In this document: positions 21,712-35,528 of the stretch, one piece after another
Position numbering within the stretch: the stretch's first letter is position 1
Layout: every line of letters starts with the position of its first letter
Source: Nitrospiraceae bacterium
Lineage (GTDB): Bacteria > Nitrospirota > Nitrospiria > Nitrospirales > Nitrospiraceae
Direction of reading: 5' to 3'
Assembly (NCBI GenBank): GCA_019637075.1
Contig: JAHBWI010000001.1
Coordinates: 248,001-312,000, forward strand
Length of the DNA stretch: 64,000 nt
The notes under the pieces: model-generated
Told to the model about the DNA's origin: nothing
What the model saw: the letters and a program-made list of their open reading frames with translations, nothing else
The model's database searches: none
Made by a program: the position numbers and the translations under genes

Positions 21712-23796
21712 TCACGCGAGCGGGAGGATTTCGAAAATCGCCGTTCGTTCCAGCCTGCCGATGTCGACCCACTGCCGAGCGAGCGGCACCAACGCCGCCA
21801 GCCGTTCCTGGACGGCAGCCAGTCGTTCGTCAACGGCGGCGGGGCGATTCTGTGTGGTCACCTGCAAAAAGCTCCGTAGCCCGTGAAGAAACATCGTGAT
21901 GTTCACAGCGGCGACCCGATCCGCCGCGTTATATAAGCCGTCGATGTCCTGTAGCACCGACGCAAGGGCCTGAGGGTGCGGCCCCGTCCCCTCCGAGTCG
22001 CTGCGGATGTTACTCAGCGTAGCCACGAGAGCGGGCACCCGCGCTTCCATTTGCGCCAAAAAATATTCATCCTGCTCATCGAGATCCTTCAAGATCCGTC
22101 CGATCGCACGCGCGTCTGCGACGGGAACCCCGCGCGCCGCCTCTTCCTCCGCCCGCTGGATCACGGTCTCGAGCACGTCGCGGCGCGGTTGTTCCGAGCG
22201 CCCCCGGGCATCGTGCAGTTGCCGCAGCGCGTCCAAAATCGGCAACGCGGTCGCCAGAGCGGGCTCGCCTACCTGGACGTTACTCTCCTCGCCGGCCTCG
22301 ACCGGCGGCATTGGAACTGACACCGGAGCCGGCTCGTGAGCACCGGATGGCGCGCTCGCTGCTTCCGGCGAGGGCGGCGCCTCTTCCTGTCGCGGCCCGA
22401 GCTCATGCACCAATCCCATGATCCGGGTCAGCCCCTCGCGAAGCGACGTCAGGTGATGAGATGCAACCGCACGTTCGTGTTTACCGGCCGCTTGCAACAG
22501 CGGTAAGAGATTGGTGGCCATCTCCTCGAGCGCTGTGAGCCCGACGGTGGCCGCGGACCTGGCAAGATTCGTCACACCCTGCAACATGAGATTCGCCAGC
22601 TTGGCCCGACGCGGCTGCTCGATGGTCCGATCCATGCGCTCGAGAGCCGTCTGTATCTGATTCAGCCATTCACGTGCTTCAAGTGCGAACAATCCCAGGA
22701 TCTCCCTCCGCACTTCGCCCGCATTCTGCACGGCCGTTTCGGCCGTCGACTCGGACGAATCCGGCTCTTTCCGATCCACCGCCGTCTGAATGACATCGGC
22801 GATCGCATCAAGACTTTCCAGGAGTGCGGAGAATTGATCCGTGGCGCTGCCGCTCGAACGAGGGGCGCCGCCCCCAGGCTTCTCGGACGACTCAAACGAC
22901 ACACGCTCGACCGCCGGAGGATCGAGGGTCTCGACGATCGATACCAGCGGAAGCGTTGCCAGGTCCAGGATTCGAGCCGCACCGCCGAGTGCGTCGTCTC
23001 CGTCCACGCGTACGGACGGGCGTGACGGATAGCGGGGGTTGATCTTGGTCACGACCCCCTGTTCGCCGCCGCTCAATCTCACGATCGTGCCCAACGGGTA
23101 GATGGACAGTTGCTCGACCAACGCCTTCATGATCTCCCGCGGGAAGGCCGTGCGTTCGGTGACCAGCAGTTCACGCACGGCTTCGTGCGGCAACAGGCGG
23201 CGGCGATAGGGTCGCGGGCTGACGAGCGCGTCGAAGATATCCACCAACCCGATGATCTGAGCCAGCTCGTTGATTTCCCGCCCCTTCAGTTTGTTCGGGT
23301 AACCTTGCCCCTTGCCCCGCTCATGCGCCTGCAACACGACTTCCCCGAGCCACGCGTATTCGGGCCCGAACTGCGCGACGATCTCCGCCCCCACACGCGG
23401 GTGATTCTCCACCACCGTCCGCTCCTCCGTGGTCAACCGGGCGGATTTGCTCAATAACTGCTGCGGGATGGCAAAGATACCGACGTCATGGAGCAGGCCG
23501 GCCAACGCGAGGCGGCGAAGTTCATAGCCGTAGTAGCCGAGCCCTATCCCGACCTTGGTCCCCAAGATTCCGACGTTGATCAAGTTCGTCACCAGCGGTG
23601 GACCGGGTGGACTCGACAGCGCCTCCACAACCAATTGGTCGTTGTCTTGGATGGCATCCACGAGTTCCGCCGCGAGACGAGTGAGCTCGGCCAGATCAAT
23701 GCGCTGGTGTTGCTCGACTGCTCCGGCGACCCGCATCAAGGCGGATTCGACTTTGCGATAGTAGCCCTGTTCCGACGTATCCATCGATCCTGACAT
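21712..23796 (-). CDS. HD-GYP phosphodiesterase fused to a degenerate HPt-like module
   Basis: The N-terminal half of this 695-residue protein is an HD-GYP domain that should hydrolyse cyclic di-GMP. It shows LLHDVGIFAIP (HD at about 102), ENHPRVGAEIVAQFG, QAHERGKGQGYPNKLKGREI and the GLVDIFDALVSPRPYR region. The C-terminal half (about 363-695) closely follows the whole 315-residue protein encoded at 24739-25686, including REILGLFALEAREWLNQIQ, SAATVGLTALEEMATNLLP and a shared C-terminus (LHGLRSFLQVTTQNRP). The first part resembles an HPt domain with the phosphate-accepting His replaced. I chose ATG 23796 because it follows the ATPase stop by 22 bases. It is the last gene of the chemosensory operon and probably its c-di-GMP output. 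Confidence 0.88.
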   Translation of the reverse strand: MSGSMDTSEQGYYRKVESALMRVAGAVEQHQRIDLAELTRLAAELVDAIQDNDQLVVEALSSPPGPPLVTNLINVGILGTKVGIGLGYYGYELRRLALAGLLHDVGIFAIPQQLLSKSARLTTEERTVVENHPRVGAEIVAQFGPEYAWLGEVVLQAHERGKGQGYPNKLKGREINELAQIIGLVDIFDALVSPRPYRRRLLPHEAVRELLVTERTAFPREIMKALVEQLSIYPLGTIVRLSGGEQGVVTKINPRYPSRPSVRVDGDDALGGAARILDLATLPLVSIVETLDPPAVERVSFESSEKPGGGAPRSSGSATDQFSALLESLDAIADVIQTAVDRKEPDSSESTAETAVQNAGEVRREILGLFALEAREWLNQIQTALERMDRTIEQPRRAKLANLMLQGVTNLARSAATVGLTALEEMATNLLPLLQAAGKHERAVASHHLTSLREGLTRIMGLVHELGPRQEEAPPSPEAASAPSGAHEPAPVSVPMPPVEAGEESNVQVGEPALATALPILDALRQLHDARGRSEQPRRDVLETVIQRAEEEAARGVPVADARAIGRILKDLDEQDEYFLAQMEARVPALVATLSNIRSDSEGTGPHPQALASVLQDIDGLYNAADRVAAVNITMFLHGLRSFLQVTTQNRPAAVDERLAAVQERLAALVPLARQWVDIGRLERTAIFEILPLA

Positions 23797-23818: not shown

Positions 23819-24733
23819 TTATCCGATGTTCGCGGCTTCCCGCACGGTGCTCTCGTCGATTTCCGACATCCGTCCCAGGGAGCCCAGCAACAGACAGAGG
23901 TCGCACAGCGTGTTGATGAGTCGGCACACCCCCCGTCCTTGCTCGTGGATCCGACTGACTGCCTCCTTGGAGAAAATCGGCCGGCTGGCGCCGGCAACCA
24001 GGAGGCGCGCGTTCATATAGGCCCTTGTGTCTTCAAGGGTAAATGTGGCCAGGTGGTAGCGAATGGCGATGCGCTGGCTGAGTTGAGGGATGCGATCGAC
24101 CTTTTGCCGCAACTCCGGCTGTCCCATCAATACTAAGGTCACGAGGAACGCATCGTTGGTCTGGAAGTTGAGCAAGAGCCGCAACTCCTCGAAGAGTCGC
24201 CGGCTCTCGATAGCCTGCGCCTCATCGATAACGATCACGGTATCGACCTGCTTGTGATGATTGGCCAAGAGATGCTCGTTCAATCGATGCAGAAGGCGGA
24301 CCTTGGACCCGCCAGCCGAGATCCCCAGTTGGCTCAGAACTTCGCAGAGAAAATCCTTGGAGGAGAAGGACGGGTTTGCGATCAAGGCTACGTCGTACCG
24401 GGATTCGGGCAGGTTCAGCACCAACGCCCGGCTCAGCAAGGTCTTACCGCAACCGATTTCTCCGGTGAGCATGACCGCGCCCTTCCGAGCCTGAATGCCG
24501 TACAGCAGTCGCTGCCTCGCCGACTCATGTCCAGGGGTGGCGACGTAAAATCGGGGGTCGGGCACGTTGTCGAAAGGCCGGCAGCGCAATCCCCAGTATT
24601 GCTCATATGCGAATTCGGATTCTTGGAGCGGTATGAGGACCGCTGCAGGCAGTGGAGGCCGGCCGGCCGACGCACCTGAATGCACGTCCGCCCCGTCTGT
24701 GGAAGGATCTGAGAACTGAGATGCCGGTATCAT
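23819..24733 (-). CDS. ExeA/MshM-like AAA ATPase
   Basis: This 304-residue AAA+ ATPase is of the ExeA/GspA type. The N-terminal motif (YEQYWGLRCRPFDNVPDPRF) is typical, followed by Walker A GEIGCGKT (about 90), Walker B VIVIDEAQ (about 165), LMGQPELRQKVDRIPQLSQR and a C-terminal lid (RGVCRLINTLCDLCLL). Relatives energise assembly of secretins, MSHA pili or EPS machines. No peptidoglycan-binding domain is fused here. I chose ATG 24733 because it starts 5 bases after the upstream stop. Its place inside a chemosensory operon is unusual and suggests that it acts on the envelope machine (perhaps type IV pili) that the pathway controls. Confidence 0.85.
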   Translation of the reverse strand: MIPASQFSDPSTDGADVHSGASAGRPPLPAAVLIPLQESEFAYEQYWGLRCRPFDNVPDPRFYVATPGHESARQRLLYGIQARKGAVMLTGEIGCGKTLLSRALVLNLPESRYDVALIANPSFSSKDFLCEVLSQLGISAGGSKVRLLHRLNEHLLANHHKQVDTVIVIDEAQAIESRRLFEELRLLLNFQTNDAFLVTLVLMGQPELRQKVDRIPQLSQRIAIRYHLATFTLEDTRAYMNARLLVAGASRPIFSKEAVSRIHEQGRGVCRLINTLCDLCLLLGSLGRMSEIDESTVREAANIG

Positions 24734-24738
24734 GTCGA

Positions 24739-25686
24739 TCAGGCGGCCGGGAGCAGCTGGCTCATCGCTTCGCGTTCGCTGCGGCCCGATGCGGCCCATT
24801 CCTGTGCCAACGTAAGCACGCCTCTGATCTTGCCTTCGACCGCCTCGAATCGCTGAGCGGCAATGCTCGGTCGGCGTTGTGCCAGGATTGAGAGAAAGCT
24901 CTGTAATCCGTTGAGAAAGGTCACCATGGCGGTCGCATTGGCGTGCTTGGCGCCGTTGTGCAGCGACTCGATCTGCCTGATGGTGGCGTCCATCGATGGC
25001 TTGGAGTCCAAGACAGCCATACCCTCCTGCCGGAGCCGACCGAGGTAATGGGCGATCGCCGGCAATTCCTGCTGGACGGTGAGAAGGTACTGTTCATCCG
25101 CGCTCTGAGTGTCTGCGAGGATCTGCTGGTAGTCCTTCGAAACGATTTGTCCGTTTCCCTGCCTGGCTTCTTGTTCCAATCGTCGCATGACGTGAGGGAT
25201 CAGACTGCGCGTCACGCGGTGATCCGCAACCTCACGGTCGTGCAAGTCTCGCAAGGAGTTTAGAAGGACCAGGAGATCCGCGGCCTTATCCTGCGGGGGC
25301 GCCGCTTTCTCCACCACTCCCAAGCCAAGCTCCAACCCGGTCGCAGTGGTTACCGAGGCGACCACCAATCGGAACTGTCCACGCACGGTGGCGTAATCCT
25401 GCTTGGTCGCGGTCGTACGATCTTTAATGGTATCGATGAAAGGCAACAGCGCGAAGGTGGTGCGTTCCACTTCCGAGAGGCTGACCGTAGCGGCCGACCC
25501 GCCGAGACTCGTGATGCCTCGCACGATCACATCGACCAACTGCGCGTGGCGGTCGGCCGGAGCCTGGCTCTCGAGCTCCGTGATCGCCGAATGTATCTGG
25601 AGAAGCCACTCCTGCGCTTCCTGCCCGAACAGGTCGATCAGTTCTCTTTGAAAATCGTCTTCGGTCTGTTCAGGTTCGGTCGCCAC
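24739..25686 (-). CDS. Pseudo-HPt protein (histidine-less), stand-alone copy
   Basis: This 315-residue all-helical protein is homologous over nearly its full length to the C-terminal half of the HD-GYP protein two genes downstream. Near the N-terminus GITSLGGSAATVSLSEVERT lines up with AHTLKGSAYTVGFQSIGDLT of the CheA HPt domains in the same operon. The phosphorylated His falls on Thr59 and the conserved Lys on Gly, so it should not accept phosphate. The C-terminal region (MVTFLNGLQSFLSILAQRRP) is shared with the HD-GYP protein but not with HPt domains I know. The GTG start has AGAGGA upstream. It may be a docking or adaptor domain within the pathway. Confidence 0.75.
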   Translation of the reverse strand: MATEPEQTEDDFQRELIDLFGQEAQEWLLQIHSAITELESQAPADRHAQLVDVIVRGITSLGGSAATVSLSEVERTTFALLPFIDTIKDRTTATKQDYATVRGQFRLVVASVTTATGLELGLGVVEKAAPPQDKAADLLVLLNSLRDLHDREVADHRVTRSLIPHVMRRLEQEARQGNGQIVSKDYQQILADTQSADEQYLLTVQQELPAIAHYLGRLRQEGMAVLDSKPSMDATIRQIESLHNGAKHANATAMVTFLNGLQSFLSILAQRRPSIAAQRFEAVEGKIRGVLTLAQEWAASGRSEREAMSQLLPAA

Positions 25687-25738: not shown

Positions 25739-27223
25739 CTAGCGCTTGCCGCTACCGAGCTGAGACGCCAGGCCCGCGATCTCAGCCAGCTTTCGCGCCA
25801 TGTCTTCCAAACGACGGTTGGAGAGATCCGCCATTTGCTCCGCTTCGTTGGCCCGCTTGGCTAACTGAGTCGACCGCTCGCGCTCGCTGGTTAAGACCGC
25901 ATCCAGATCACGGGCCTTCTGCACGGCCTGCTCAAGATCCTGCACCTGCGCTAAGAGCGCGGCGGCGGTATTCCGTTCGGTCGCCAACGTCGTTTCGAGT
26001 TCAGCCAATCGCGCGCGGCCCTGCTCCAGCGCTTCTTCCAACTCGGGCACTCTGGCAACGGCGGACTCGAGGTCGGCCACTCGCCCGATCAAAGCCTCCG
26101 AACGGTCGCGCTCGGCTTCCAACTTGCCGTCCAATTCCTTCGCTCTTTGTTCCGTCTGTTCCAGTGAGGAGAGCTGCTGCACCAACTGAGTCGCCGCATC
26201 CCGCTCCGCCGATAGCGTCGCTTCCAACTCGACAATTTTTGACGCTTGCCTGGCGCTGTCCGCAACCTTGGCCGACAGTTCGTCGGCTCGCTGCCGTTCT
26301 TCCGCCAAGCTGGACTCGAGTTCCGGCACACGCTCCGCCTGCCTGCTTGCTTCGGACAGTTGCTCGGCCATCGTCGCGCGTTGCGCCCGTTCCTCCGCCA
26401 ATCCCGATTCCAAGTCCTTCGTGCGTCCGAGCAGCTCGGAAGTCTGTGCGCGCTGCTCGTCGAGCGCCGCTTGAGCTTCTTGAAGACGCCGCCCGCCCTC
26501 CTGCCGCTCCCGATCGAGTTCCTGTTCCAACTCGGTGATACGCGCAGCACGCTCGGCCATCGCCGCTTCGAGCGCCTGGTCGGCCTGAGGGGCCGCGAGT
26601 TCGATCGATTGCGCCGCAGGAACGGGCGCCGCCACAGCAGGTTCCGGCTCGGTAACAGCCAACTTGATGGGTTCCGGTTCCGGCTCGACATGGACACGGA
26701 TCGGTTCCTCTTCCCGCGCGCCCCATACCGGCTTCGCGGCCGAGATCGTCGGTTCGGACAACTCCGGGTCCGGCTGGCTCGCCGCGCGAACGGGTTCCTC
26801 TACGACAGGCTCATGGGCCAAGGCAGGCGCCGGCATCGCGGCGGCCGCCTTCGGCTGTCGCTTCGCCAACAGGTCAAGAACGCGGTCTTTCAGCGACGTC
26901 CCCTGAAACGGCTTTTTCAGCACACCATCAGCCTTACAGGATTCCGCTTGCCGCGACACTTCGTCGTTGACGATACCGGAAATCAGCAGCACGGGTATTT
27001 CGGAGAGATTCGGCTGCATCCGCACGAAGGAACAGACTTCATATCCGCTCTTGTCCGGCATGATGACGTCGGACACGATGAGGTCGGGTCGATCCTTACT
27101 CAGGATGGCCAAGGCTTCCGATCCGTTGGCCGCCAAGGTCACGCCCATTCCCGCCTCGGTCAGGAGACGTTCAGCCACCTTGCGGACCGCAATGCTGTCG
27201 TCGGCGATCAGTATCTTAGGCAT
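25739..27223 (-). CDS. Response-regulator receiver with long coiled coil (FrzS/AglZ-like layout)
   Basis: Residues 1-122 of this 494-residue protein form a receiver domain: acidic pair Asp8/Asp9, phosphorylation site Asp52 in VSDVIMPDKSGYEV, and the conserved Lys in LKKPF. A Pro/Ala/Glu-rich linker (about 123-205) leads to a long coiled coil (about 205-475) made of Glu/Arg/Leu heptads, e.g. AEERQRADELSAKVADSAR. There is no output enzyme domain. The layout resembles FrzS and AglZ of Myxococcus, which localise motility complexes at cell poles. Here it sits between CheW and the pseudo-HPt gene, so a localisation or scaffold role for this pathway is plausible; the homology to FrzS itself is not shown. 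Confidence 0.85.
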   Translation of the reverse strand: MPKILIADDSIAVRKVAERLLTEAGMGVTLAANGSEALAILSKDRPDLIVSDVIMPDKSGYEVCSFVRMQPNLSEIPVLLISGIVNDEVSRQAESCKADGVLKKPFQGTSLKDRVLDLLAKRQPKAAAAMPAPALAHEPVVEEPVRAASQPDPELSEPTISAAKPVWGAREEEPIRVHVEPEPEPIKLAVTEPEPAVAAPVPAAQSIELAAPQADQALEAAMAERAARITELEQELDRERQEGGRRLQEAQAALDEQRAQTSELLGRTKDLESGLAEERAQRATMAEQLSEASRQAERVPELESSLAEERQRADELSAKVADSARQASKIVELEATLSAERDAATQLVQQLSSLEQTEQRAKELDGKLEAERDRSEALIGRVADLESAVARVPELEEALEQGRARLAELETTLATERNTAAALLAQVQDLEQAVQKARDLDAVLTSERERSTQLAKRANEAEQMADLSNRRLEDMARKLAEIAGLASQLGSGKR

Positions 27224-27247: not shown

Positions 27248-27727
27248 TCATGGATTCAGGCGAGAGGGGGCAACCCCCAACGTCGTCAGATTGATTAACG
27301 GAAACTCCTCATCCTCCGCGATACAGGTCCCCGCGATGTCGGGATCGGGCCCCACTTGGTAGCGAATGGCGGAACGCTCCACCATATGCAGCGCGGGCAC
27401 GACGTTATCGATCCGAATCGCGATCGGCCCGTCGACATGTTTGGCCATCAAACACAACGGTTCTGTCTCGGGCATGGGGCGCCGCAACTTCGCCGCCAGG
27501 TCGAATACCGGCAAACAGTCCTTTTGGTGCCGAACCAAACCCGCGATGAACGGCGTCTCGCTCGGGACCGGGCTTGATCCCGGCCAGGGCATCACACCGC
27601 CGACTTCGTCCGTTCTTGCCGCAAGCCGCATCCCACCGACTGAAAACACGATCAACCCCTGGGTGCGCATAGCCGCAGCCTGTTGCGCGTGGGCCCGTAA
27701 CTGGCTTCGGAGTTGTGAGCGCAACAT
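27248..27727 (-). CDS. CheW-domain coupling protein
   Basis: This 159-residue CheW-type protein has an N-terminal helix (RSQLRSQLRAHAQQ) and a CheW fold with GLIVFSVGGMRLAARTDEVG, PFIAGLVRHQKDCLPVFDLA and a divergent C-terminus. It should couple receptor and kinase. I chose ATG 27727 because it follows the upstream stop by 16 bases and begins a sensible helix; the longer frame is a shadow of the upstream gene. It is the third CheW-like protein of the operon, so the arrays may be mixed or one copy may act on the receiver/coiled-coil protein. Confidence 0.82.
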   Translation of the reverse strand: MLRSQLRSQLRAHAQQAAAMRTQGLIVFSVGGMRLAARTDEVGGVMPWPGSSPVPSETPFIAGLVRHQKDCLPVFDLAAKLRRPMPETEPLCLMAKHVDGPIAIRIDNVVPALHMVERSAIRYQVGPDPDIAGTCIAEDEEFPLINLTTLGVAPSRLNP

Positions 27728-27743
27728 GGTTCGACTCTTGCCC

Positions 27744-28286
27744 CTACTCTCTCGCCCCGACGGCGGCCAATTGCGGCAGGGTGAGGCTGGGTGTGGCTCC
27801 TTTGTCCCCAGTCTGCCGACCCAGAGTTCCCAAGACATCTTTGCCCGCCGGAAGCTCCAATACCCAGTACGGATTGGCAATGAGCGCGATATAGTCCGGA
27901 TCCATGAAGAAACCGATAAGGCGCTCCCGCTCGGCTCCGCGAAAATGAGGCGGCATCGGACGGATTTCATGCCGGGCCACGTCTACCAAGCCCATCACCT
28001 GCTCGACGAGAAATGCCCGCGAGCGCTCATCGTTGCCGTAAAGAATAATCCTGGAATCACTGTTGAGCGTGGGGGTGCTCCGCGTCAGCCGTTCCGCCAG
28101 GTTGGTCCGATCGTACGCCATGCCGGCCCATGCGACCGTCGGACCGTTTCCTGCTTCACTCAGCGTCACGATTCCGCGGACCCAATCCGAAGGGAACGCA
28201 ATCAGTGGGGCACCGATTCTCGCCACCAAAAACCTGATCGATTGGGCCGCCGCCGGCCCGACCGCTCTGTATGTTCGAAGTCCCAT
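27744..28286 (-). CDS. Divergent CheW-like protein
   Basis: This 180-residue protein has a weak CheW-like pattern: an early strand pair (SIRFLVARIGAPLIAFPSDW with VRGIVTLSE), a middle region (ILYGNDERSRAFLVEQVMGL) and a late strand pair (FMDPDYIALIANPYWVLELP). It lacks the well-conserved NLRG/PV motif region of ordinary CheW. It is directly downstream of cheA and 16 bases before another CheW gene. It may be a CheW-like adaptor comparable to the ChpC or ChpE-position genes of Chp systems, but the assignment is tentative. Confidence 0.65.
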   Translation of the reverse strand: MGLRTYRAVGPAAAQSIRFLVARIGAPLIAFPSDWVRGIVTLSEAGNGPTVAWAGMAYDRTNLAERLTRSTPTLNSDSRIILYGNDERSRAFLVEQVMGLVDVARHEIRPMPPHFRGAERERLIGFFMDPDYIALIANPYWVLELPAGKDVLGTLGRQTGDKGATPSLTLPQLAAVGARE

Positions 28287-28334: not shown

Positions 28335-31300
28335 TTATTTCCTGACACCGGCCTCACGGCCGACCCATTTCTGGACTTCTTGAATCAACGCCCGTTCCTC
28401 GACCGGCTTGGCAATGTAACCTGAGGCACCGACGTTGATGGCCATCTGCCGATGCTTTTCCCCGGCTCGGGTGGTCATCACCAAGATCGGCGTCGTTTGC
28501 GTCAAGGGTCTGGCCCGAAGCGCTTGAATGACCTCGTACCCGTTTAGCTTGGGCATTTCGAGGTCGGTAATGATCAGCTGATAGGCCTGCGTCGCAGCCT
28601 TGCGGCATCCCTCTTCGCCGTCCACCGCCGTCTCCACCACGTACCCGGCTGATTCCAGCATCCTGCCGACGAACTTTCTGATGCTCAACGAGTCGTCGAT
28701 CAACAGGAGCGGCATCTGTTTCGAGGGCGCAGCCTCAGAGATCGGTTGGTCGATTTCCTCATGCGCCAGTTGCGGGATGGAGCCGTCGCCGATCGGCAAG
28801 GCCTCTTGGTATTCGCGCGCCGTCAACCGACTCACGTCGAGGACCAGTACCACGCGTCCTTCCGGGTCGATCGTGGCGCCGCCGAACACCGACCGCTCGA
28901 ACGGCTTCAACGATCCGAGCGACTTGATGACGATTTCCTGCCGGCCGAGCAATTCGTCGACCGCACAGCCCAACGGTCCTGTGGAGGTGCGGACGATCAC
29001 GACCGGGGATCCACCATCGACGATGCCGGCTTCGCGTCGGATCAGGTTCGACAACGGATAGACTTCGATCGCTTCGTCTCCGATCTGCATCACCGACCGA
29101 TCGCCCATCCGCTGCAGCGTCGAGGTCGTCGGCATCGTGACTTCGCGGACACTGGGAAGCGGGATCGCATAGCGCTCATTGGCGACCCGCACCATCAGGG
29201 CGGTCGCGATCAACAGGGTCAGCGGCAGATGCATCGTGAATTTGGTGCCCAGCCCTCGAACCGATTCCACTTCGATGTGGCCGTTCATCGTTTCGATGAC
29301 GCGTTTCACCACATCCATACCGACGCCTCGCCCGGCCTGATCCCCGACGGCTTCGGCGGTGGAGAAGCCCGGAAGGAAGATGAACTTGATCACTTCGCTG
29401 TCAGGCAAGGTGTCCGCGACATCCTGCCGAATCAGACCCAACTTGACCGCTTTGGCTTTGATTCGAGCGATGTCCAGGCCGGCGCCGTCATCCTCTACTT
29501 CGATGACGACCGAGTTACCGCGATGCGCCGCATGGAGATACACCGTACCTGCCGCCGGTTTGCCCTGCGCCACGCGCGCGGCCGCCGGTTCAATGCCATG
29601 GAACACCGCGTTTCTGACCAAATGCACCAAGGGATCGACCAAGCGCTCGACGACGCCGGTATCGATTTCCGTGTGTTCACCCGACGTGACCAGATTGACT
29701 TCCTTGCCCGTCGCGCGGGCCATTTCACGGGCGGCGCGGCGGAATCGCGTAAACGGCGTCCCGATGGGCACCATGCGGGCACGCGCGACTTCATCCCGCA
29801 TGCCGAGCGTCAATTGCTGGAGCTGGCCCATGTCATCCTGCGCACGTCGGATGGAGCCGCTGAGCTGCGACATGGATTCCGTAATGTCGGCGGTCACTTC
29901 GCTGATACGCCGGGCGAGGATGTTGAAATCGTCGTACTTGTCGAATTCCAGGCTGCCGAAATCCTGGACACCCGGAACACCGGACTGGGCCGGCTCACCG
30001 GACGCCTCGGGTGCCGGCTGAAAGGAAAACGTGTGCTTGTCTTCAAAGGTCCGAACCGCATCGATCAAGCGGTTCTTGTTCGCCAGCACCTGAGAGGCCA
30101 ACCCTTCCAACGTCCTCAGCCGCTGCTCCAATCGTCCACGGTCGATGACCAATTCGCCGACCAGATTGAGGAGGCGTTCCAACCGGTCTCGGCTGACACG
30201 GATAACCTCGCGCTCCTCCGCGGCCCTACCGTCCATCGTTTTGGCGGTCTCCGCCGCCTCCGGCTCGGGCGCAGGTTCGGCTACCGCGCGCTCGGTCGCG
30301 ACCGGCGCGTTGCTGGGTTCGGAAACGCTGACGGCGGTCGGATGACTCAGTTGCTTGAGTTCCTGCAGCGATGCCGCAAACCGCTGTCTGGTTCGCGTCA
30401 CCATCGAGGGGTCCCGCCGCATGAGCGTCCGAATCACGTCGATGGCGCGCAACAACAAGTCCGTATGCCCTGGCTGCACCCTCATCGACCCATCCCGCAC
30501 CGCGCCCATAAAATCTTCGATATGGTGCGTCAGGTCGCCGATGGACTGGAATCCAACGGTGTAGGCAGAGCCTTTCAAGGTATGGGCCGTACGAAACACC
30601 TGGTGAATGATCTCAGGGTTCGACGATTCCTTCTCGAGCCTAAGGAGCGAGGCCTCGAGTTGTTCGAGGTATTCTTGCGCTTCCGGAGCGAAATAGGAGA
30701 TGACTTCGGGATCCAACGTCGGAATCAAGTAGGCTTGCGTCAGTGGCTCATCCGGAGAGGAGTTGGCTGGCACCGTTGCTTCCGCCGCCGGAGACACAAC
30801 GGCAGGAGCCACGGGCTCCGTGGCGACGCTAGCAGCCGGCTGCGGAACCGGAGTCGCCTCTGGCTCCTGCGACAGGCCTTCTTCCAAGCCTCGAAGCGCC
30901 CGGATCATGTCCGGCACGTCTCGCCTCAATTGCGGCAGCAGTTCTTCATTACGGCGCATAAGCGCGCGAATCACCTGCACCGCTCGCTGGAGGCAGGGAA
31001 ACCAGGCAGGCGCGATACCGGCACGCCCCTCGCGCACGGCGATCATGCAGGTTTCGATCGGATGGGCCACATCCCCCACGACTTGAAACCCGACCGTATA
31101 CGCGGAGCCTTTGAGGGTGTGTGAGACACGATACAGCTGATGGATCGTGTCCGGGTCCTGCAGGTTACCTTCCAACCGAGAAAGCAGCGTGAGGATCGTC
31201 TCGAGATACTCCTCGGCTTCCGGAGCGAAATACGACAGCACTTCGGCGTCCAACACGGGAACCAGATAGTCGTCGGTGGGCACACCCTCGCCGGAAATAT

Positions 31301-31709
31301 CGGCTCCAAGCAGTCCCTCACAGCGGGCGACGAATCCTTCCGCCGCCGAAAGATCATCGGTTCCACCCTTGGCGATGACGTCGATTTGTCGACGGAAGGA
31401 CGCCGCCGCATCCCGCAGGAGGTCCACAAGGTCGGCCCACCGGTCGGATGGAATGCGGTCGATGTGCTCGAGTGTATCCTCGAGCAACGCCCCGAGCTTC
31501 CCGAGCCCCGGGAAGCCGTACAGGAGGGCCGCTCCCTTCAGCTTATGACCGACGGTGTGATAATCGGCCAGGTCCGCCGGTTCCGGAATCGCCTTGTCTT
31601 TCGGATGCAAGGCCGTCCAGAACCGGCCCATGTCGTCGCTGGCTTCCGCGACGAAAATGTTGACCAGCTGGTCACGATCGAAATCAGAGCTCATTGCGCC
31701 ACTCGACAT
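28335..31709 (-). CDS. Hybrid chemotaxis histidine kinase CheA/ChpA type with three HPt domains and a receiver
   Basis: The domain order in this 1124-residue kinase is HPt1 (His55 in VGHKLKGAALLYG), HPt2 (SHTLKGSAYTVGF, about 195), HPt3 (AHTLKGSAYTVGF, about 373), a dimerisation helix pair (DRLERLLNLVGELVIDRGRL), an ATPase domain (LVHLVRNAVFHGIEP; DDGAGLDIARIK; GRGVGMDVVKRV), a CheW domain, and a C-terminal receiver (LLIDDSLSIRKFVG; Asp in ITDLEMPKLNG; Lys in IAKPVEE). Multi-HPt CheA kinases with a fused receiver are typical of type IV pilus (Chp) systems. HPt2 and HPt3 are near copies around the active His. ATG 31709 and 31694 are both possible starts. All catalytic motifs look intact. Confidence 0.95.
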   Translation of the reverse strand: MSSGAMSSDFDRDQLVNIFVAEASDDMGRFWTALHPKDKAIPEPADLADYHTVGHKLKGAALLYGFPGLGKLGALLEDTLEHIDRIPSDRWADLVDLLRDAAASFRRQIDVIAKGGTDDLSAAEGFVARCEGLLGADISGEGVPTDDYLVPVLDAEVLSYFAPEAEEYLETILTLLSRLEGNLQDPDTIHQLYRVSHTLKGSAYTVGFQVVGDVAHPIETCMIAVREGRAGIAPAWFPCLQRAVQVIRALMRRNEELLPQLRRDVPDMIRALRGLEEGLSQEPEATPVPQPAASVATEPVAPAVVSPAAEATVPANSSPDEPLTQAYLIPTLDPEVISYFAPEAQEYLEQLEASLLRLEKESSNPEIIHQVFRTAHTLKGSAYTVGFQSIGDLTHHIEDFMGAVRDGSMRVQPGHTDLLLRAIDVIRTLMRRDPSMVTRTRQRFAASLQELKQLSHPTAVSVSEPSNAPVATERAVAEPAPEPEAAETAKTMDGRAAEEREVIRVSRDRLERLLNLVGELVIDRGRLEQRLRTLEGLASQVLANKNRLIDAVRTFEDKHTFSFQPAPEASGEPAQSGVPGVQDFGSLEFDKYDDFNILARRISEVTADITESMSQLSGSIRRAQDDMGQLQQLTLGMRDEVARARMVPIGTPFTRFRRAAREMARATGKEVNLVTSGEHTEIDTGVVERLVDPLVHLVRNAVFHGIEPAAARVAQGKPAAGTVYLHAAHRGNSVVIEVEDDGAGLDIARIKAKAVKLGLIRQDVADTLPDSEVIKFIFLPGFSTAEAVGDQAGRGVGMDVVKRVIETMNGHIEVESVRGLGTKFTMHLPLTLLIATALMVRVANERYAIPLPSVREVTMPTTSTLQRMGDRSVMQIGDEAIEVYPLSNLIRREAGIVDGGSPVVIVRTSTGPLGCAVDELLGRQEIVIKSLGSLKPFERSVFGGATIDPEGRVVLVLDVSRLTAREYQEALPIGDGSIPQLAHEEIDQPISEAAPSKQMPLLLIDDSLSIRKFVGRMLESAGYVVETAVDGEEGCRKAATQAYQLIITDLEMPKLNGYEVIQALRARPLTQTTPILVMTTRAGEKHRQMAINVGASGYIAKPVEERALIQEVQKWVGREAGVRK

Positions 31710-31745: not shown

Positions 31746-33620
31746 CTACGCCAGCTTGAACTGCGCGACCGAGGAGTTCAGGCCTTCGGCAAGTTTCGCC
31801 ATGTCCTCGATCGTGAGTCGTGTCGAGTCCGTTTGCTTTTGCGTCGCGACGGCGCCGCCGGTGAACTCCTTAATGGCGCGTCCGACCTTTTCCGTCGAAG
31901 CCGTCTGCTCGGCGGCGGCGCTGGCGATGTTCTGAGCCAGCTCGGCGGACCGTTTCGCGATGTCTGAAATTTCCGCGAACACGTCACCGGTTCGAAGGGC
32001 CGACGCGGATCCCGCTTCCACGGCCTGGGTTTCGTGCTCCATCGCGACGACCGCGTCCTGCGTTTCCGTCTGAATGACCTTCACGAGGTCCGCGATTTCG
32101 CGTGTGGCTTGGGTCGAACTTTCGGCCAGCTTTCTGACCTGGTCGGCGACGACGGCGAATCGAGCACCCGCCTCACCGGCGCCGGCCGCCTCGATGGCGG
32201 CGTTCAGCGCGAGGAGGTTTGTTTGATTGGCGATGTCTCGAATCGTCGACACGATTTGGGAAATTTCGAGCGACCGGTCGCCGAGGCCCTTTACCTGTTT
32301 CGACATACGTTGCACCGCTGAACGGATGCTCTGCATGTCGCGCACCGTTTCTTGCACCGCCACGTTGCCTCGTTCCGTTGCCGACAACACCTGCTTGGCG
32401 GATTCAGACGAAGCGCCGGCCGTAGTGGCCACTTGACGCATACCGGCGGCCAGCTGTTCGACCGCGCCCAACGTACGCACGGATTCTTCCGCCTGGCTGC
32501 GCGCCGTGCCGGACATGGTACCGGCCGAATCGCGGAGCGTACCGGCTGACTTGTTGACTCGATCAGCCGCTTCACGCACCTGTTTCAACAACTGCCCGAA
32601 CCGGGCGATCATCAGGTTGAAACCGTCGGCCAAGTTACCGAACATGTCGGCGGTGACCTCACCGCGCTTCGTCAAGTCTCCCTTACCGACATCGGACACC
32701 AACACCAGGAATTGCATCAACCGCTTTTGCATGAGGTCGCGCTCTTCCTCCGTGGACACAAGGGCCGTAATACGGTCAAGCATGGAGTTGAACGCTTTGG
32801 CCATCTGACCCAACTCGTCCTGGGATTGGATCTTCGCGCGGGCCTGGAGGTTACCGCTGGCGGCCTGCGTCGCGACGTTGGCGATGTGCGCGATCCCGCG
32901 AGACAGGAAGGAAGCAAGGAGGTACCCGACGAAGATACCCAAGCCCACCGCAACGACACCGCCGGCGACAAGAATCATCGTACCGTTGGTCGCCAATGCC
33001 TGGGCGTCTTCGTTCAGGTCCTTCGCCACGTCTTCGAGCGTCGTGACCTGCTCGTTGTGGCGCTTGATGGCATTTTCGAAAGACGGCGTCAAGTTCACCG
33101 TCAAGGCCAAGACACCGAGGGCGCGCATCTGCTCGGCTTGTCCCGAGGTGAGGTTCTTTTTATCGAAGCTGTCCGCCATCGCGCTCAAGGCGCCGTCGGC
33201 TTCCTGGAAATACTTCCTCAACGCCGGCTCGAACAAAGCAAGGTCCTTGGCCTCATCGCGGCCGGCCCGCGACACGCGAAGGTTGATGGACTTGTAGTCA
33301 GCCACGGACTTCTCGATTTCCGCCTTCAAGGGAGGCAACTTCGCGACGTCCTGAGCAAAGTCGGCCTGCTTCGTGGCGGACGACAAGTCCAGCAGGATCT
33401 GGTGATGCTTCGTCAACGCGGTTCCCATCTGAGCGAAGTCCGCAAGCGGCACCGTGTAGTCGTTGTACGACGTTTGGGATTGGCTGCTGAGCTGGCGCAG
33501 GGTGAACACACCGACGGCCGCCATAATCAAGATGATGAGGCTGACCACACCGAAGCTGACCAGCAGCTTCGACTGTGTTTTCATATCTTGGAATCGAGTC
33601 ATTACGCCTTGCGCAACCAT
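31746..33620 (-). CDS. Methyl-accepting chemotaxis protein (PilJ-like, 4-helix-bundle sensor)
   Basis: In this 624-residue receptor, the first membrane helix lies at about 17-37 ([20 protein letters not shown]). A periplasmic all-helical sensor of about 170 residues, like the 4HB_MCP family, follows, then a second membrane helix (about 210-235, [20 protein letters not shown]). HAMP and further HAMP-like linker segments lead to the signalling domain with the conserved hairpin tip ([21 protein letters not shown]). I chose ATG 33620 because GGAGGA lies six bases before it. The receptor sits between CheW and CheA as pilJ does in Chp operons. No heme or PAS motif is present; a secreted heme c protein is encoded three genes upstream. 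Confidence 0.93.
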
Positions 33621-33716
33621 GAGCACTCCTCCTTGTTCTAGGCGCTTGTTTGTGTCAGCCGGTCGATGGCGCCCGCTCCGGCCTCACGCGCCCCAGAAGA
33701 TTCGAACCGTCGTTCC

Positions 33717-34262
33717 CTAACTTGCCCGCGGTGTCGTACCGCCCCCATCGGCTTGAGCGAAAATTTGCGACACGTCCAGCACACCTCCCAGGCGATCGTC
33801 CAGGCGGAGCACGGAAGACACGAAAGGCCTGGCTCCGGCCGGACCGGCCTGCATGGCCGGCAACACGCTGTCGCGCGACACGGTTCGAATTTCAGGAACG
33901 TGATCCACCAGCATCCCGAGGTACCGCGACCCCTGCCGTACGACCACCGCGAAGGACAACGCGCCCTCCTGCTCGGTCAGGCCGAGACTGGATCGCAGGT
34001 CGAGGAGCGGAATGACCGTTCCCCGAAGATTGGTCACCCCCGTCAGCATGGTGGGCATGCCGGGCACCGTCGTCACGGCTTCCACCTCGAACACTTCGCT
34101 GATGTTGCGCAAGTCGATCGCGAACAACTCCCCGCCCAACGCCAGGACGCACACCCGAAGCGTGCCCTCCGCCGAAGCGGCCGGCGCGCCCGTGGTGTGC
34201 GCGATACCTGAGGCTTGGGTGGGTGCGAGCGCGTGCGTCTGCGGTGTCGGACCGTCAGTCAT
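33717..34262 (-). CDS. CheW coupling protein (PilI-like)
   Basis: This 181-residue protein has a disordered N-terminus of about 33 residues, a complete CheW domain (VCVLALGGELFAIDLRNISE; GVTNLRGTVIPLLDLRSSLG; LGMLVDHVPEIRTVSRDSV) and a C-terminal segment FVSSVLRLDDRLGGVLDVS. The NLRG motif and the receptor/kinase contact regions look intact, so this is the best candidate for the main coupling protein of the cluster. Its ATG lies 3 bases from the stop of the response regulator, which indicates translational coupling. Confidence 0.93.
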   Translation of the reverse strand: MTDGPTPQTHALAPTQASGIAHTTGAPAASAEGTLRVCVLALGGELFAIDLRNISEVFEVEAVTTVPGMPTMLTGVTNLRGTVIPLLDLRSSLGLTEQEGALSFAVVVRQGSRYLGMLVDHVPEIRTVSRDSVLPAMQAGPAGARPFVSSVLRLDDRLGGVLDVSQIFAQADGGGTTPRAS

Positions 34263-34265
34263 GGA

Positions 34266-34628
34266 TTAATTCAGCACCCGTTTCACGGCGGCCAGAAGAT
34301 CCTCCGCCTTAAAGGGCTTCACGACGTAGCCGTTCGCCCCCTGCTGCTGTCCCCAGAACTTGTCGCTTTCCTGTCCCTTCGACGTGCACAACACGATCGG
34401 AATGTTCTTGAAGCGATCGTCGCTCTTCAGGTCACGGCAGGTCTGGAATCCATTGCGTCCCGGCATCACGACATCCATGACGATGAGGTCGGGCTTGTCG
34501 ACCGACAACTTCTCCTCAAGCTTGTCCGTGTTCGGGTACGACACCACCGTGTGATTCGCCGACTTCAGATAACCCTCGATCATCTGCAGTTCAGCGTACG
34601 AATCATCGACGACAACGATCTTGCTCAT
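34266..34628 (-). CDS. Single-domain response regulator (PilG/PilH-like)
   Basis: This 120-residue receiver domain stands alone: Asp8/Asp9, phosphorylation site Asp52 in IVMDVVMPGRNGFQ, Thr/Ser83-84 region LCTSKGQ and Lys104 in VVKPFKAED. The motif WGQQQGANGYVVKPF is characteristic of the PilH/PilG type regulators of twitching motility. It probably receives phosphate from the three-HPt kinase. It is placed at the 5' end of the operon, directly before CheW. Confidence 0.93.
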   Translation of the reverse strand: MSKIVVVDDSYAELQMIEGYLKSANHTVVSYPNTDKLEEKLSVDKPDLIVMDVVMPGRNGFQTCRDLKSDDRFKNIPIVLCTSKGQESDKFWGQQQGANGYVVKPFKAEDLLAAVKRVLN

Positions 34629-34697: not shown

Positions 34698-35432
34698 CTA
34701 GCGCATCGGAATGACGATGCTGATGGCGCCGGCGAGGTCGCCTTCCTTCCAACCTTCTTTTTTCATGCCCGTAACGTCACGTTCCCCCTTCGGATTGCCG
34801 TGGCAATTCAGACAGGTCGACGTGGCATACTCGGGGTCCATCATCCGAAGCACCGGCTTGCCGTCCAACATCGTGGCTTTGCTGTACGGTTGCCCCTTCG
34901 GGTGACGACTATCGGCAAAAATCCGCAGCACTTCCGACTCGAAATCGTCTGGCTTGTTGCCTGGATATCGGTAGTCCGCACCCGTCAGCTTTACGCGGAT
35001 GCCGGTCTTCCGATAGAAATGCTCTCCGGACTTCCGAGCGAACGAGGCCGGGAGAAAGCCCTTGAATCCGACGCCCTGCTTGTTAATGACCGGTTGCGCT
35101 TCATCGACGACTTCCTTTTCCGCTTCCACCATGGCGAGGAACAAGGCGGCCTGCGGCACGCTGCTCGGGCGGCTGAGATCGATCTTCGTCGCCTTGCGGA
35201 ACCGATCGATGACTTGATTGGCCACGTAGTCGCCCGTAAACCCCTTGTCGGCCTTGGCCGAATCATTGATGGCGGCCTGGTTTTCCGACACGACGCCTCG
35301 ACCGACTTGAAGCAGCTTAATCAGCAATTCAGCCGTTTCAACCTCGGTATTGGCCGATGCGGGAGCAGCCATACTCAAACCGATTGCCATAATCGCGGCT
35401 GCGATAGATCCCCGTAAGCAGTGCTTCGACAT
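34698..35432 (-). CDS. Secreted heme c protein with DUF3365 (Tll0287-like) domain
   Basis: This 244-residue periplasmic protein has a signal peptide of 27 residues ending in APASA. The rest fits a DUF3365/Tll0287-like sensor domain: an N-terminal helix pair, GVGFKGFLPASFARKSGEHF and TGIRVKLTGADYRYPGNKPD, followed by a single heme c site CLNCH (about residue 209) in ATSTCLNCHGNPKG. In many bacteria this domain is the extracytoplasmic sensor of receptors or kinases; here it is free. A strong AAGGAGGCGGGC site precedes ATG 35432, which settles the start. It is the first gene of the chemosensory operon and a plausible redox or ligand partner of the chemoreceptor, which is inference. Confidence 0.85.
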   Translation of the reverse strand: MSKHCLRGSIAAAIMAIGLSMAAPASANTEVETAELLIKLLQVGRGVVSENQAAINDSAKADKGFTGDYVANQVIDRFRKATKIDLSRPSSVPQAALFLAMVEAEKEVVDEAQPVINKQGVGFKGFLPASFARKSGEHFYRKTGIRVKLTGADYRYPGNKPDDFESEVLRIFADSRHPKGQPYSKATMLDGKPVLRMMDPEYATSTCLNCHGNPKGERDVTGMKKEGWKEGDLAGAISIVIPMR

Positions 35433-35500
35433 GCCCGCCTCCTTGTGCGTGGTGACGCCCATCCCCTTCCGATCCCGGACGTACGGATGACTCCCTGTCA

Positions 35501-35528
35501 AAGATAGCGCAATTATTCTGGTTGACAA
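35501..35528 (-). promoter_or_regulatory. Likely sigma-70 promoter of the chemosensory operon
   Basis: On the minus strand TTGTCA (35523-35528) is followed after 16 bases by TATCTT (35501-35506), a five-of-six -35 and a four-of-six -10. The start site would be near 35494, giving a leader of about 62 bases before the DUF3365 gene. Confidence 0.5.

Follow-up and report, generated by a model that had tools for sequence, protein, structure and literature searches.

The locus raises the question of what an HPt-like protein does in a chemosensory operon once its phosphorylatable His is gone. The window (the whole stretch of 64,000 nucleotides from a Nitrospiraceae bacterium that was analysed) contains such an operon, and the operon genes and domains discussed below are all on the minus strand. 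An ORF with a GTG start (24739..25686) encodes a stand-alone tandem pseudo-HPt protein of 315 aa (P0001), and a copy of the module lies within an HD-GYP protein (21715..22728). Residues 7-315 of P0001 align by BLASTP with residues 424-761 of the HD-GYP ORF, which are its last 338 residues, at 28% identity and an E-value of 3e-39; the alignment includes the segments FLNGLQSFL (P0001) and FLHGLRSFL (HD-GYP protein). This bears out the preliminary description of the locus, which had claimed homology between the 315-aa protein and the HD-GYP protein's C-terminal half over nearly the whole length of both. The genome has just these two copies of the module, and the next match is CheA itself. We propose, with a probability of roughly 0.58, that the tandem dead-HPt protein is a phosphorylation-independent docking protein of what is probably a pilus-type (Pil-Chp-type) chemosensory array. 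The HPt descent of the first domain (D1), the erased site, the tandem arrangement (the second domain, D2, less firmly), membership in the operon and co-occurrence with PilT are well supported by sequence comparison and structure prediction.

D1 (residues 9-117; 25336..25662) is, judged from profiles and models, a descendant of a CheA-P1-type HPt domain, a four-helix bundle without the phospho-His. Residues 15-89 of P0001 align with the third HPt domain of the neighbouring CheA (E 1e-6). The Pfam Hpt family (PF01627) scores 20.8 bits on P0001 against a curated cut-off of 24.6 (E 4.8e-4), and it is matched by 20 of 21 relatives at E-values up to 1, the best being 9.6e-14. The family profile retrieves the CheA P1 structures 2ld6 (E 2.7e-7) and 1tqg (E 5.9e-7). 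The AlphaFold2 model of P0001 has a mean pLDDT of 87 and places the D1 helices at residues 9-39, 44-67, 71-85 and 95-116. VIA-align superposes D1 on 1tqg with a Z of 12.7 and 2.4 A over 104/105 residues, and further CheA P1 chains and AHP1 are also among the structural matches. The predicted fold is therefore that of an HPt domain, as the preliminary description had expected. Scores similar to those of these HPt matches are also reached by designed bundles and other helical proteins; since helical bundles score high generally, the homology of D1 to HPt domains rests on the profile evidence. The closest His-bearing relatives found are the N-terminal HPt domains of CheA-receiver hybrids in other Nitrospirota, which have a similar opening (EE.FQK.LL..F..EA). 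Weak phylum-wide matches outside the order were rejected as family members: all seven that were read have His at the position, and the five long ones are CheA-receiver hybrids. Weak profile matches to GH123_cat, BrxD, DUF7553 and others were judged to be due to chance.

The His of the HPt motif HTLKGSA is replaced by Thr in both copies, which corresponds to T59 in P0001 (codon 25510..25512, placed by alignment) and to T476 of the HD-GYP ORF (codon 22570-22572). The Lys of the motif is replaced by Gly in the stand-alone protein and by Ala in the HD-GYP copy. The N-terminal part had been described beforehand as aligning with the HPt domains of the neighbouring CheA with exactly these changes, which agrees with the match to the third HPt domain. 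As a reference we used His48, Lys51, His67 and Glu70, the hydrogen-bonded site of Salmonella CheA P1. All four residues are replaced in 72/72 stand-alone proteins. The His48 position holds Thr in 64, Ala in three, Met in three and Ser in two, and never His; the Lys51 position is Gly (70) or Ala (2), the His67 position Phe (69), Val (2) or Ile (1), and the Glu70 position Leu (57), Ile (12), Phe (2) or Val (1). The 38 HD-GYP copies have T/N/S/G/A, A/G, S/T/F/L and L/F at the same four positions, with His in 0/38 and with Asn, Gly or Ala at the phospho-His position in 12/38. The HPt domains of the neighbouring CheA proteins, picked by a motif containing the His and Lys, retain Glu70 in 117/117. 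Since His occupies the position in 0/72 and 0/38, its loss is not due to chance. The phosphorylatable His that defines a Pfam Hpt domain is absent from the first domain of every stand-alone and HD-GYP copy. The claim of an HPt-derived module, not phosphorylatable at the usual site and present twice in one operon, thus stands on the profile, the predicted fold and these homologues.

Residues 57-67 around the former site are the best conserved stretch of D1 (mean 0.92 vs 0.74 for D1). The Gly after the Lys position is kept in 71/72 stand-alone proteins, whereas it is Arg or Lys in 35/38 HD-GYP copies. Since the site residues are gone while this stretch is the best conserved and the Gly is kept, D1 appears to have a conserved face without the relay chemistry. 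The change of the interface Gly suggests that the HD-GYP copy may bind something else.

The preliminary description also treated each copy as a single module with a shared C-terminal segment, and this part did not hold. The FLNGLQSFL segment sits where helix C of an HPt would be, within a second HPt-like bundle, and each copy is very likely two HPt-fold domains in tandem, with D2 less firmly assigned than D1. D2 (residues 183-309; 24760..25140) is a probable, more degenerate HPt-like bundle with Glu240 at the His position, and its assignment comes from the model and from a Pfam match in the relative L101. Residues 135-315 modelled alone with 78 sequences have a pLDDT of 89, and residues 191-299 superpose on 1tqg with a Z of 11.4 and 2.2 A over 105/105 residues; further CheA P1 chains, ArcB and plant HPts are also listed among the matches. 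D2 of L101 matches Pfam Hpt with 31.8 bits (cut-off 24.6; E 1.7e-7), and four further relatives match over the same bundle with E-values of 0.003-0.005. Compared profile to profile, D1 and D2 align in the expected register over the greater part of the bundle, without reaching significance (E 0.15), and a D2-only profile searched against solved structures gave no HPt structure at a significant E-value. An HMM of the local CheA HPts scored D2 at 11.7 bits at best vs 9.1 for shuffled and 8.8 for reversed sequences, and its mean was no better than reversed. That comparison is therefore no proof for D2, and the L101 match and the fold carry the claim. The D2 His position is mostly Ala, Glu or Asp in relatives, and His is found there in 1/48 stand-alone and 1/30 HD-GYP-copy sequences.

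The pseudo-HPt gene is a fixed member of a chemosensory operon. The operon begins with a single-domain CheY-like receiver of 120 aa (34266..34628) upstream of CheW (33717..34262); a receiver is in the same place in the loci L160-L163. These are followed by an MCP with a 4HB sensor and HAMP (31746..33626), a hybrid CheA kinase that has a receiver and three HPt domains with the His (28335..31709), a CheW-like protein (27744..28286) and a second CheW-like protein (27248..27970 as an ORF, with the true start probably further in). The next gene encodes a receiver and long coiled-coil (RR/coiled-coil) protein (25739..27223), a candidate docking partner that adjoins the pseudo-HPt in 78/79 loci. Its receiver-then-long-coiled-coil architecture recalls AglZ of Myxococcus, and the protein is the obvious output candidate of the operon. 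Between the pseudo-HPt and HD-GYP genes lies a gene for an AAA_22-type AAA ATPase, a relative of the XrtA/PEP-CTERM ATPase (ORF limits 23819..24799, with the true start probably inside); 39/79 loci have this gene, and it is missing from the others. The order CheW-MCP-CheA-CheW-CheW-RR/coiled coil-pseudoHPt-(AAA)-HD-GYP recurs across the 79 Nitrospirota loci. With domain-only queries, the sole loci without the CheA core are L074 and nine that have <3 kb upstream, and the sole loci without the HD-GYP domain are L101 and three whose downstream DNA is short or absent. Among the top 80 of the 127 genome stretches that match, the named relatives are Nitrospira, which marks the window as part of a Nitrospira-type genome; with the search covering these 80, carriers may also exist outside Nitrospirota. 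Adjoining the operon, 34698-35528 encodes a protein that looks secreted and has one haem motif of the CxxCH type (CLNCH).

The genomic context suggests that the operon is a Pil-Chp-type (type IV pilus) chemosensory system. In a comparison of 61 related genomes (32 carriers and 29 non-carriers), PilT was found in 31/32 carriers vs 15/29 non-carriers at an E-value below 1e-80 (Fisher p 4e-5, shared ancestry uncorrected). The sole carrier without a PilT match is a genome that is 80% complete and in 580 contigs. FliG was found in 16/32 carriers vs 8/29 non-carriers (Fisher p 0.11, shared ancestry uncorrected), so the flagellar switch is undetectable in half of the 32 carriers. The genome studied here (G000) encodes PilT (499 bits), and CheY, CheW, MCP and a multi-HPt CheA-receiver hybrid are all within one operon, which is a Pil-Chp-type layout. 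The co-occurrence with PilT, the carriers without FliG and this layout together point to a Pil-Chp-type system. Since PilT is also present in 15/29 non-carriers, the link to the pilus is not exclusive.

The second copy forms the C-terminus of an HD-GYP protein (21712..23796). ATG 23796 is its most likely start rather than TTG 23997, because the latter would overlap the AAA gene. The HD-GYP domain is degenerate in 68/68 sequences compared. All 68 retain the HD pair, but Leu or Ile replaces the Lys of HDxGK, and Ala or Val replaces the first His of the HH motif. Judged from these residues, the protein may not hydrolyse c-di-GMP. The fused module is absent from 26/68 HD-GYP neighbours compared. 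In L160-L163, four loci that are more distant, the pseudo-HPt is present and nothing matches the HD-GYP half; therefore, the stand-alone gene looks older than the fusion. In a quick tree, 37/39 HD-GYP copies form one clade (support 100), and the remaining two (L062 and L087) each group with stand-alone copies from the lineage to which they belong. A single origin of the HD-GYP fusion is possible on this tree. The pseudo-HPts of L075 (titled Candidatus Omnitrophota) and L042 (Nitrosospira) branch inside Nitrospira clades, and these are probably mis-binned or mislabelled contigs.

In the proposed docking mechanism, D1 most likely retains the receiver-facing HPt surface (helix B, TNLGGSAAT), and this face would hold a CheY-like receiver without taking phosphate. 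Candidate receivers are the neighbouring RR/coiled-coil protein, the CheY at the head of the operon and the receiver of CheA. D2 might offer a further surface for looser contacts. The fused module, found in many Nitrospira, may bring the degenerate HD-GYP protein to the same place as a derived tether. We infer the receiver binding, the scaffold role, the HD-GYP tether, the partners and the direction of effect. A docking or decoy role had been put forward in the preliminary description and is plausible. Docking is supported because CheA and the receiver protein are constant neighbours of the gene, and because FimL, described as a homologue of the ChpA N-terminus whose two HPt-like domains both have Gln at the acceptor site (PMC3019171), recruits the PilG receiver to the poles together with ChpA (PMC10519157). 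Placement of PilG and of the pili in A. baylyi also requires FimL (PMC9596432). As a tentative and rather unlikely extension, the free scaffold and the HD-GYP-fused tandem, with up to four pseudo-HPts, would form a phosphorylation-blind array branch that couples receiver position to c-di-GMP sensing with no phosphate passing.

Loss of the His may instead have produced a decoy or inhibitor, in which the real CheA HPts face competition from the pseudo-HPts for the kinase domain or receivers, so that the phosphorelay is damped. The plant pseudo-HPt AHP6, with Asn for His, is thought to compete with real HPts in this way (PMC7402358), and within the operon three real HPt domains stand beside as many as four pseudo-HPts. 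For FimL, which is nearer in setting, the reported role is that of a recruiter and not an inhibitor, though its overexpression inhibits cAMP production (PMC3019171). Decoy and docking are hard to tell apart by sequence, and we consider the decoy unlikely. It is slightly less probable again that the HPt fold is merely ancestral and that the four-helix bundles were re-used, with the conserved face binding a partner outside two-component signalling, such as the pilus machinery, a polar hub, the AAA ATPase or the HD-GYP protein. The hydrophobic or small residues of the site (F78, L81), the far drift of D2 and the changed interface Gly of the HD-GYP copy would fit such re-use; however, apart from L074, every locus with sufficient flanking DNA keeps the gene in a chemosensory operon, and the residues surrounding the former His still form an HPt-like motif.

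Thr59 could also be a phosphate acceptor itself, since threonine and serine Xpt domains have been named in ChpA (PMC12632253) and Thr is found in 64/72 stand-alone proteins. The conserved acceptor Thr expected of such a domain is absent, with Ala or Met in 6/72 stand-alone proteins and with the replacements in 12/38 HD-GYP copies given above, and the Lys, second His and Glu are lost. In the published account, phosphate has not been demonstrated on the non-His Xpt domains of ChpA (PMC12632253). Thr phosphotransfer was rejected because the Thr is variable and its supporting residues are gone, and we regard it as very improbable. Docking remains the preferred reading. It suggests that pseudo-HPt docking proteins, so far mainly FimL in gammaproteobacteria, are a fixed part of Nitrospira pilus-type chemosensing. 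The free and HD-GYP-fused forms are a natural pair for asking what a dead HPt does, and they bear on why ChpA retains HPt-type domains not seen carrying phosphate.

The term "undescribed" that was initially given to the domain family overstates the case at the level of the concept, because His-less HPt relatives are already known: FimL and ChpA's inactive Xpt domains in type IV pilus chemosensing, and AHP6 in plants. A described Nitrospira version of the pseudo-HPt tandem was not found in the open-licence literature. CheA P1 and Pfam Hpt have the fold and motif frame in common with D1, but the four phosphorylation-site residues are all lost here. Five of the nine Xpt domains of ChpA are reported in phosphotransfer and the rest are possible scaffolds of HPt fold (PMC12632253); these are in cis within the kinase, whereas the protein here is separate. 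AHP6 of Arabidopsis is a stand-alone HPt without the His, as here (PMC7402358), but it is a plant protein of the cytokinin pathway with Asn for His and no reported tandem, and the likeness is of kind and not of claimed ancestry. FimL of Pseudomonas aeruginosa and Acinetobacter baylyi is, like the protein here, a separate pilus chemosensory protein with two HPt-like domains without the acceptor His (PMC3019171, PMC9596432). This trait is present in P0001 as T59 in D1 and E240 in D2, the latter domain being assigned from predicted fold and the Pfam match of one relative. In FimL both sites are Gln and the gene lies apart from the pil-chp operon, whereas the Nitrospira protein has Thr and Glu, is encoded in the operon and is also copied onto the HD-GYP protein. 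Likened by the published description of FimL, the Nitrospira protein probably "works like" FimL but is not said to be FimL. It is a Nitrospirota variant of a known concept that is also duplicated onto a degenerate HD-GYP protein.
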